A stretch of 47,139 nucleotides of DNA, taken from Hymenobacteraceae bacterium. GTDB taxonomy: Bacteria; Bacteroidota; Bacteroidia; Cytophagales; Flexibacteraceae. Position 1 is the first letter of the stretch. Every line of letters begins with the position of its first letter. The stretch lies in NCBI GenBank assembly GCA_947459175.1, contig CANHCT010000007.1:1-47139 (forward strand), written 5' to 3'. Below are positions 41,934-47,139 of the stretch, one piece after another. The translations under genes were made by a program, and so were the position numbers. The notes beneath the pieces are model-generated. The model had not been told where the DNA came from, searched no databases, and saw only the letters and a list, made by a program, of their open reading frames with translations.

Positions 41934-42371
41934 ATGGCTATTGGTTTCCACAACGCTCCTGCAAGGCATTTTCCGGATAAAAATGTTTTGAAAAAATGCC
42001 TGAAAGCATTGGCAGAAAAACACAGACACAAGATTTTGCAACTCGATTTTGTGTTTGTTTCTGACCCGGAGTTACTTGAAATGAACCAAACTTATTTGGG
42101 CCACGACTATTTCACCGACATCATCACCTTTGACCAATCGGAAAAATCCGGTGAGCTGGAGGGTGACATTTATATTTCGACAGATCGGGTGGAAGAAAAC
42201 GGACTAAAAATCGGAGCCGGTATCAAAGAAGAATACATCCGGGTATGCTGCCACGGACTCCTGCACCTCTGCGGACTGAAAGACAAAACCCCCGCTGAAG
42301 CAGAAAAAATGAGGGCCGGAGAAAATGATGGCATTGTCCTGTACTTCAGTCTTTTACAAAAAAATCAATAA
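41934..42371 (+). CDS. ybeY: rRNA maturation endoribonuclease YbeY
   Basis: A 145-residue metal-dependent RNase involved in 16S rRNA 3' processing and ribosome quality control. The diagnostic motif is HGLLHLCGLKDKT, where the histidines bind zinc; EMNQTYLGHDYFTDIITFDQ and GDIYIS also fit the family. Length is normal. It overlaps the convergent serB-serA gene by seven bases at the 3' ends. Confidence 0.94.
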   Translation: MAIGFHNAPARHFPDKNVLKKCLKALAEKHRHKILQLDFVFVSDPELLEMNQTYLGHDYFTDIITFDQSEKSGELEGDIYISTDRVEENGLKIGAGIKEEYIRVCCHGLLHLCGLKDKTPAEAEKMRAGENDGIVLYFSLLQKNQ

Positions 42372-44260
42372 AGCACCCGAAATTTAATGGTGCCCTCTAT
42401 GGATTTCAGGTCCTGAATCACCTTTTTGCTGTACTCTTTGTCGATGTCGGTTATCACATATCCGATATGGGCATTGGTTTTCAGATACTGGCCCACAATA
42501 TTGATTTGGTGACCGGCCAGCACCTGGTTGATTTTGGCCAGGATGCCGGGCACATTTTCGTGGCAATGAATCAATCTGTGCGCATTGGCAAGTTCGGGAA
42601 GCTGGATTTCAGGAAAATTCACGCTCATGTAGGTACTGCCGGTGTTGATGTATTCCATGATTTTGTTGGGAACATAATCGGCAATGTTGAATTGGGCCTC
42701 TTCAGTGCTGCCGCCGATGTGAGGGGAAAGGAGGACATTCGGCAAACCCTGCAATTCGGATAAAAATTGCTCCTGGTTGTTTTTTGGCTCCTCGGGAAAC
42801 ACATCGAGGCCGGCACCCCTAACCTTACCGGAGCGCAGGGCCCGGGCAAGGGCTGTAATATCTACCAAATGGCCGCGGGCCAGATTGAGAAAAACCACCC
42901 CGTCTTTCATTCTGGCAAATTCCTTTTCCCCGATCAGATTCTGATTGGACTTGCGGCCATCGGCATGGACGGTAATGATGTCGGCAATTTCCAGCAACTG
43001 ATTAAGATTGTGGCACTTTCTTGCATTGCCCAAAGCCAGTTTGTCTACTGCATCATAAAAATACACCTGCATACCCAGAGCTTCGGCAATCACAGACAGT
43101 TGTGTCCCAATATTTCCATAGCCGATAATGCCCAGCTTTTTTCCCCTGACTTCATAACTTCCGCTGGCAGATTTATCCCATCTTCCGGCGTGCATCTGAT
43201 TGCTTTTCTCCACGATTTTTCGGGTCAGGAGAATCATTTCTCCTATGGCAAGTTCCACCACGGAGCGGGTATTGGAATAGGGTGCATTGAATACTGCAAC
43301 GCCTTTTTTGAGACAAGTTTCCAAATCAATCTGATTGGTTCCGATGCAATAGGCACCCACTGCTATCAGTTTGTTGGCATTTTGCAATACCCTGGAAGTC
43401 AGAATTGTCTTGGACCGGATTCCCAAAATGGAAACATTTCGTATTTTTTCAGACAGTTCGTCCTCATCCATACTTCCGGGATAGGCTTCTACCTGATATC
43501 CCTCGGCTTTGAACAAATCGATGGCGTGAGAATGGATGTTCTCCAAAAGCAGAACAGAAATCCGGCTTTTGGGATAGCTTATATTCATGGGCAGCTGGTT
43601 GTCGTACAAAAATTCATCCAGAGTTGCTGACTTGTGGTCTGCCACAGAAATGACCATATCTCTCTCCACATTTTCGGTAAAGGCAAAAAATTTATTGGCA
43701 AGGCCAGCTTCCCGAATTTCATAATCGGTGTAGCCATCTCCCAAAACATATACTTCTCCCGGCAGCTGCAGTTCTTTCAGCAGCTTCACTTTTCCCTTTT
43801 CCTGACTCAGATAATTGTCCTCATCGTATCCGGTAATCCAGCCGCGGTCGTCAAACACAAAGGTATTGGCATACACATTGGATTCTTCGATGCCAAAATC
43901 AGAAACGATGGGAACAATAAACTCTTTGAAACCCGAAGAGACGATGCGGATTTGGGGGCTGAAGGCAAAGAAAAAGTCCCTATTCCGGATAAAGGATTCG
44001 GATATTTTATTTTTCAGGGTATCCACCAGCTGCGCCAGATGGGACTTATTGGCATTCAGCAGTCCCACCCGGATTTTCAGGGATTCGGCAAATGAAAGCC
44101 GGCCCGACATGGCTTGTTCGGTTACGGCCCGGATTTTTTCGTGTATCTGGTCTGCATCAGGCAAGCCTGCGCAGGAAATTCTGGCCAATTCATCCAGGGC
44201 CTCCACTTGTGTAAATGTGGAGTCGAAATCAATGACAAAAAACTTACCGGAATCTTTCAA
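42365..44260 (-). CDS. fused phosphoserine phosphatase and D-3-phosphoglycerate dehydrogenase
   Basis: A 631-residue protein with two enzymes of serine synthesis in one chain. Residues about 1-220 are a HAD phosphatase: nucleophile motif DFDSTFTQVEALDELA, SSGFKEF, a lysine in KGKVKLLKEL and the metal motif LGDGYTDYEI, as in SerB. From about 232 to the end is SerA: NAD-binding GYGNIGTQLSV, FLNLARGHLVD (catalytic arginine), SPHIGGST (catalytic histidine) and a C-terminal ACT domain (ENVPGILAKINQVLAGHQIN) that may sense serine. SerA carries out the first step and SerB the last; the aminotransferase SerC is missing here. The start is TTG at 44258-44260, since a stop lies just upstream in frame. 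Confidence 0.87.
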   Translation of the reverse strand: MKDSGKFFVIDFDSTFTQVEALDELARISCAGLPDADQIHEKIRAVTEQAMSGRLSFAESLKIRVGLLNANKSHLAQLVDTLKNKISESFIRNRDFFFAFSPQIRIVSSGFKEFIVPIVSDFGIEESNVYANTFVFDDRGWITGYDEDNYLSQEKGKVKLLKELQLPGEVYVLGDGYTDYEIREAGLANKFFAFTENVERDMVISVADHKSATLDEFLYDNQLPMNISYPKSRISVLLLENIHSHAIDLFKAEGYQVEAYPGSMDEDELSEKIRNVSILGIRSKTILTSRVLQNANKLIAVGAYCIGTNQIDLETCLKKGVAVFNAPYSNTRSVVELAIGEMILLTRKIVEKSNQMHAGRWDKSASGSYEVRGKKLGIIGYGNIGTQLSVIAEALGMQVYFYDAVDKLALGNARKCHNLNQLLEIADIITVHADGRKSNQNLIGEKEFARMKDGVVFLNLARGHLVDITALARALRSGKVRGAGLDVFPEEPKNNQEQFLSELQGLPNVLLSPHIGGSTEEAQFNIADYVPNKIMEYINTGSTYMSVNFPEIQLPELANAHRLIHCHENVPGILAKINQVLAGHQINIVGQYLKTNAHIGYVITDIDKEYSKKVIQDLKSIEGTIKFRVLY

Positions 44261-46090: not shown

Positions 46091-47139
46091 ATGAAATTCT
46101 TTATTTGCCTTTTTTTCCTGACTTATGCTTTTATTTCTTCCGGCCAGTTTTCCGGAGGAAATGGCGAAGGAAGTTTTCGGGCCTCAGGCGGGTTCAGATT
46201 GCTGAACGGCTCAGGAGACATTCCGCTTTTTACGGGAGGAAATGGTCGTGGTGATGGCAATGGCGGCGTCGGGAAACTTCTGAGAATCACTTTAAACGGC
46301 TCACCCGATCCACTTCACTACCCCGGAGGCGGCGGACACGGAAGTACCGGAGTTTATGTTCCCTACTCTTCTTTATCCGGTCAGAATCCTTTTGCATTTC
46401 CGGGTGGCAATGGGGATGGTTCATCCGGCAATATTTCCATCAGCATCAGCCTCAACGGGGAAAACAGAAATCCAAACCTGGATTTCCGGGGCGGAAACGG
46501 AAATGGCAGCTTCCGCTCCCTTTCGGGAGAGGTGTTTTTGACAGGGATCTCTGTAAATGCGTCTCTGACTTATTTCGGAGGAAACGGAAACGGCTCCTCA
46601 AGGTCTCAATCTTTAAAAGATATTGTACTCTCCGGAAGTTTTTATAACCATCCCTTTCCCGGCGGATTCGGGCGGGGCGACAGGACTCTGAAGAGTTCCA
46701 GAATTACCCTGAACGGGATCCTTGCACCCGCTTCGGTTCGGATAGCCCAGTCTGCCATCCGAGACTTTTATCATGTCCCTGATTTTGAACCAAAAAAAGC
46801 CCGCCTTTTGATTGACTTTCACCCGGAAAACCAACTGAAAGGAATCATTTTGCAGCAGAAGTCAGAGGGATTCGACTTTTTCTCTCATTCCAAAACGGAA
46901 TTTGAAAACGGTAGTCCCCAACAACTCGAAATTCCGGTGGACCTGAAAGCTGAAAATCAGATTTTTAGGGTTTTACAGATTTTTAGTGATTCTTCCAGGG
47001 CATTGAGTGATCAGATTTCTGTGGATGCTTTACCTGCCGGAACAAGCATATTTGCCTACCCCAATCCCGCTTCCGACTACCTGATTTTGGCTACCAATAC
47101 TGGGGAGACAGTAGGGAATATTGAATTGTTCGATATCCG
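46091..47139 (+). CDS. secreted glycine-repeat protein with type IX sorting tail (cut by window edge)
   Basis: At least 349 residues, open at the right edge. A short signal peptide (FFICLFFLTYAFISSGQ) leads into seven repeats of about 26-30 residues, each opening with F/Y-x-GGNG-x-G (from residues 20, 47, 77, 103, 132, 161 and 189) and carrying L-N/S/T-G in its second half. After about residue 210 comes a non-repeat part, then the beginning of a type IX C-terminal domain (IFAYPNPASDYLILATN). So it is likely exported to the cell surface. No enzyme motif is seen. It is probably co-transcribed with the SUMF1-fold protein gene. Confidence 0.8.
   Translation, partial: MKFFICLFFLTYAFISSGQFSGGNGEGSFRASGGFRLLNGSGDIPLFTGGNGRGDGNGGVGKLLRITLNGSPDPLHYPGGGGHGSTGVYVPYSSLSGQNPFAFPGGNGDGSSGNISISISLNGENRNPNLDFRGGNGNGSFRSLSGEVFLTGISVNASLTYFGGNGNGSSRSQSLKDIVLSGSFYNHPFPGGFGRGDRTLKSSRITLNGILAPASVRIAQSAIRDFYHVPDFEPKKARLLIDFHPENQLKGIILQQKSEGFDFFSHSKTEFENGSPQQLEIPVDLKAENQIFRVLQIFSDSSRALSDQISVDALPAGTSIFAYPNPASDYLILATNTGETVGNIELFDI

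Follow-up and report, generated by a model that had tools for sequence, protein, structure and literature searches.

A SerB-SerA fusion in Bacteroidota and a shorter form in Sphingobacteriaceae that has kept the phosphatase and the ACT domain

The window (the whole stretch of 47,139 nucleotides from a Hymenobacteraceae bacterium that was analysed here) contains one intact gene in which a phosphoserine phosphatase domain of the SerB type is joined in frame to a complete phosphoglycerate dehydrogenase (PGDH, SerA) with an ACT domain. Its product is, with good probability, a bifunctional SerB-SerA enzyme that would operate together with a separate SerC, and in which serine slows the SerA part and probably alters the SerB part as well. 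The gene (42365-44260, minus strand) is a single uninterrupted reading frame of 631 codons, corresponding to a protein of 631 amino acids; it begins with TTG, and its stop codon (42365-42367) is included in these coordinates. A stop lies five codons upstream of the TTG. A wrongly assigned start codon was ruled out because the start position is kept in the sister species, the sequence TTG-Lys-Asp being identical in G001 and G002 and ATG being found at the same position in G003 and G004. The start given in the sequence-only reading is thus upheld, as is its claim that a HAD domain of the SerB type is fused in frame to a complete, ACT-bearing PGDH, to which both the one open frame and the profile matches described below testify. 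Chance or misassembly as the source of the fusion was also ruled out, since 47 of the 59 genomes of the order share the full-length arrangement, at 53-82% identity. At its end, the fusion gene overlaps by seven bases with a convergent YbeY gene (41934-42371, plus strand). Elsewhere in the window, an open-ended frame (46091-47137) containing many GGNGxGS-like repeats probably encodes a surface or secreted protein.

The SerB domain (residues 1-225; 43586-44260, minus strand) belongs to the HAD-IB phosphatases, as its residues 4-196 score 53 bits against TIGR01488 (cut-off 45). Against the serB equivalog TIGR00338, the same residues reach 65 bits where 144 is the cut-off; the domain is, thus, a diverged relative, and its function as SerB has to be argued from residues and context. 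Its motifs comprise DFDST (11-15), E20, M51, F57, R64, S108, K157, D175, and D179, that is, the catalytic Asp pair, the Ser, the Lys, and the second Asp pair, together with the phosphoserine-binding Glu, Met, Phe, and Arg, in roles that we take to be those of the Methanocaldococcus jannaschii enzyme. When these residues were tallied in 43 fusions, D11, D13, E20, R64, S108, K157, D175, and D179 were invariant, whereas M51 was kept in 35 and F57 in 38. The phosphatase part aligns with the human, M. jannaschii (archaeal), and mycobacterial phosphoserine phosphatases (PSPs), and best with 3kd3, a phosphoserine phosphohydrolase-like protein from Francisella. Motifs I-IV and the substrate-binding residues are common to the domain, human PSPH, and M. 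jannaschii PSP, from which it differs in scoring below the TIGR00338 cut-off and in being joined to SerA. No HAD-IB phosphatase other than the fusion exceeds the cut-off in the source genome.

The remainder of the chain (residues 226-631) matches the PGDH equivalog NF008759 with 645 bits (cut-off 404) over positions 4-410 of the 410 of the profile. The first part of the substrate-binding lobe (residues 229-335; 43256-43576; PF00389 at 236-548) is followed by the NAD-binding domain (residues 336-522; 42695-43255; PF02826 at 340-516), by the last part of the lobe with the hinge (residues 523-560; 42581-42694; again PF00389, and with the boundary of the deletion described below near residue 526), and by the ACT domain (residues 561-631; 42368-42580; PF22629 at 563-626), all on the minus strand. 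The NAD domain carries GYGNIG (380-385), W361, and the catalytic residues R462, E491, and H514; apart from N383 within GYGNIG, all of these are invariant in the 43 fusions, which retain both the Arg-Glu-His set and the GxGxxG motif. Equally invariant (43/43) are the ACT ligands H567, N569, and N587, equivalent to His344, Asn346, and Asn364 of Escherichia coli SerA, where they bind serine; PGDHs that lack these residues do not respond to serine (PMC6300728). With a single ACT domain, the serine ligands, and no ASB domain, the SerA part belongs to type II. Solved PGDHs align across residues 230-631, and the type II enzyme of E. coli (1yba, 1psd) aligns end to end with residues 226-631, sharing with the fusion the catalytic triad, the equivalent of W139, and the serine ligands. 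The fusion differs from it by the added N-terminal phosphatase and by the absence of the Gly336-Gly337 hinge, in whose place ANAH is found. Both sets of catalytic residues noted in the first reading, those of SerB and the triad of SerA, are present, and so are the serine-binding residues of the ACT domain.

In the scheme proposed here, the N-terminal HAD-IB domain would release serine from phosphoserine, and the type II dehydrogenase at the C-terminus would oxidize 3-phosphoglycerate to phosphohydroxypyruvate; the intervening transamination would be left to a separate SerC. We infer both activities, for which the residues, their conservation, and the genome context give good support. Serine bound between the paired ACT domains of two chains would slow the dehydrogenase, as it does in E. 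coli SerA, to which the part is homologous. The same assembly of lobe and ACT domain, which would hold the chains together, probably changes the phosphatase upon serine binding, a notion that derives from the deletion form described below.

No serC was found near the fusion in the source genome. A canonical serC (438 bits against PRK05355; cut-off 253), a gene for a 315-amino-acid PGDH devoid of an ACT domain, and a DUF1015 gene lie in a row on another contig (C79; L012), and would provide an alternative route through the first two steps of serine synthesis. Contamination is an unlikely source of this contig, as its nearest relatives come from within the genus (G003, at 68% and 82% identity). 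The fusion is therefore the sole recognizable SerB of the source genome, yet not its sole SerA. Separate serB and serA genes had been named beforehand as a finding that would make the fusion redundant; for serB this does not apply, as no other HAD-IB serB is present, but for serA it does in part, given the second, ACT-less PGDH beside canonical serC.

The source genome also encodes, on contig C81 (L180:1228-2283), a diverged class-V aminotransferase, which matches 3ffr (titled "Phosphoserine aminotransferase SerC" in the PDB) at 1e-49. Proteins of this type fall far short of the cut-offs of the SerC equivalogs, and some genomes encode two paralogues. Homologues that match 3ffr are encoded directly after the fusion in G014, G018, G028, and G037, and in family f8, where serB and serA are separate, the gene for the aminotransferase either overlaps the serA end or starts within tens of bases after it. 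The loci at which such a gene lies next to serB-serA, fused or split, are L083, L084, L085, and L181-L184. Judged by this sequence and gene context, the diverged class-V aminotransferase is likely the SerC of these bacteria. Another candidate for a diverged SerC, L004 on contig C235, was rejected, as we read it as kynureninase-like. Within the genus, the diverged type of SerC alone is present in G001 and G002 and the canonical type alone in G003 and G004, and both are present in the source genome; as these are draft genomes, absences are tentative. For Echinicola, GapMind lists a gap at SerC, and none at SerA or SerB, and Echvi_1811 is an essential, diverged SerC candidate (PMC7311316). Together, the aminotransferases adjacent to the fusion and the Echinicola candidate argue that the middle step is supplied by a separate enzyme, and that the pathway would be encoded by three genes or two. 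That the SerC step is left out, as originally stated, is thus correct for the chain alone; in the wider system, a class-V aminotransferase gene adjoins the fusion in several relatives and overlaps the split serB-serA genes in others.

Among the remaining 12 genomes of the order, the two parts are separate in six, and neither part is seen in the other six. In a sample of the phylum, 26 of 395 genomes carry the full fusion, namely all 15 sampled genomes of the window's own order, nine of another family of the same class (f26), and two of a family in another class (f66). The search for the same domain order in other Bacteroidota, which had been proposed as a check, was therefore positive. Separate but adjacent serB and serA genes, overlapping or nearly so, were found in four f8 genomes and one f16 genome (L081, L083-L085). 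In the SerA tree, all fusions fall into one clade (100/97) alongside seven separate SerAs, a topology that leaves room for a single origin of the main fusion lineage followed by splits. The two f66 fusions (L049, L050) are deeply nested within those from the class to which the window belongs, and their position suggests acquisition by horizontal transfer.

A different form was encountered in Sphingobacteriaceae (f23), records of Mucilaginibacter and Pararcticibacter included, where the homologue has only 430 amino acids (loci L068-L078 and L100-L179). It retains SerB, the first part of the SerA lobe, and the final stretch of this lobe together with the ACT domain, but is without the NAD domain (residues about 334-526) and, thus, without R462, E491, and H514. 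The NAD domain is missing, and the phosphatase residues are retained, in 91 of 91 Sphingobacteriaceae sequences. In 80 of these 91, the 177 residues of the NAD domain are missing throughout, and the three ACT ligands are retained in 79, 80, and 79, respectively; the remaining sequences retain the ligands in 11 of 11. These short proteins form one clade (99) nested among the fusions in the SerB tree, which is a quick tree. In the predicted structure of the short form, strands and helices alternate in the lobe (pLDDT about 85), the C-terminus has the topology of an ACT domain, and matches to the model include both PSP and E. coli PGDH. The predicted structures were of moderate confidence (pLDDT 66-72), and the model of the full fusion was of low confidence because its alignment had been built from truncated homologues only.

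From this evidence, the 430-amino-acid form arose from a SerB-SerA fusion by loss of the NAD domain. In 10 of 10 f23 genomes checked, canonical serC and a gene for an ACT-less PGDH lie side by side, so that loss of the fused dehydrogenase could be afforded. The simplest reading would be that the second PGDH made the fused dehydrogenase dispensable and that it was then cut out, while the ACT domain was kept for its importance to the phosphatase. That SerB and a serine-binding ACT domain were retained when the NAD domain was lost speaks, on evolutionary grounds, for a role of the ACT domain in the phosphatase as well. Such control is feasible: serine inhibits SerB2, the ACT-bearing PSP of mycobacteria, with a Ki near 20 uM via a change of its oligomer (PMC10564941). 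Like the Sphingobacteriaceae form, for which it is a working analogue, SerB2 (ACT-ACT-PSP) combines PSP and serine-responsive ACT on one chain; its two ACT domains, however, are N-terminal and differ in origin, whereas the ACT domain of the fusion is C-terminal and derived from SerA.

Whether the SerA part thereby doubles as an allosteric module of SerB, one serine-sensing ACT assembly setting steps 1 and 3 of the pathway jointly, and Sphingobacteriaceae having kept the module and discarded the dehydrogenase, is a proposal that we consider evenly balanced. The retained serine ligands indicate binding, not which activity is governed. The earlier suggestion that the ACT domain controls both activities at once gains indirect support from the invariant His, Asn, and Asn and, most strongly, from their retention in the phosphatase-only form.

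The replacement that seems to have been completed in Sphingobacteriaceae might also be under way in the source genome, with its second PGDH beside canonical serC; the dehydrogenase half would then be redundant and on its way out, and the chain mainly an ACT-controlled SerB. This is unlikely, as the dehydrogenase has kept every one of its residues, and as its NAD domain shows little amino-acid change (dN about 0.115, from the single pair G000 and G001) against saturated synonymous change, which argues that the domain is still under selection.

Nor is the bifunctional reading seriously challenged by the idea that the HAD domain acts on another substrate (for example, glycerol-3-phosphate, or phosphohydroxypyruvate in a repair reaction) and that another phosphatase makes serine. 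The serB score below the cut-off would fit this idea, as would a histidine-phosphatase-family protein of the source genome with similarity to PspA below the cut-off, and there is precedent in an algal bidomain enzyme in which a PSP-like HAD domain is likewise N-terminal to an NAD-dependent dehydrogenase (PDB 6iuy; PMC7468427). That enzyme makes glycerol by consecutive steps, and its dehydrogenase, glycerol-3-phosphate dehydrogenase, is of a family unrelated to SerA. Conservation of the phosphoserine-specific residues E20, M51, F57, and R64 across the family, the fusion to SerA, the operons with SerC, and the lack of a second HAD-IB SerB all argue for serine synthesis instead, and we regard another substrate as quite improbable. 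Least probable is that the fusion serves substrate channelling, earlier imagined via a third protein and for which no support was found, or a three-enzyme complex with SerC. Even though some relatives encode SerC beside the fusion, the steps that are fused do not follow one another, neither hands its product directly to the other, and no serC lies near the fusion in the source genome.

Both halves of the bifunctional enzyme belong to known families, and fused pathway enzymes are already a known kind. The oomycete SerA-SerC fusion (PMC2705460) also joins enzymes of this pathway, but steps 1 and 2, whereas SerB-SerA joins steps 1 and 3. Neither a description nor a biochemical study of this SerB-SerA fusion or of the deletion form was found in the open-access literature; sequence databases may hold it under PGDH names. 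The present assignment locates SerB in many Bacteroidota, where the gene is likely labelled only as phosphoglycerate dehydrogenase. With the full fusion, overlapping split genes, and the dehydrogenase-less form all occurring in related bacteria, these proteins amount to a natural experiment that may show how one enzyme's regulatory domain comes to control a second enzyme. If the proposed control is true, Sphingobacteriaceae would have turned a metabolic enzyme into a regulatory domain.
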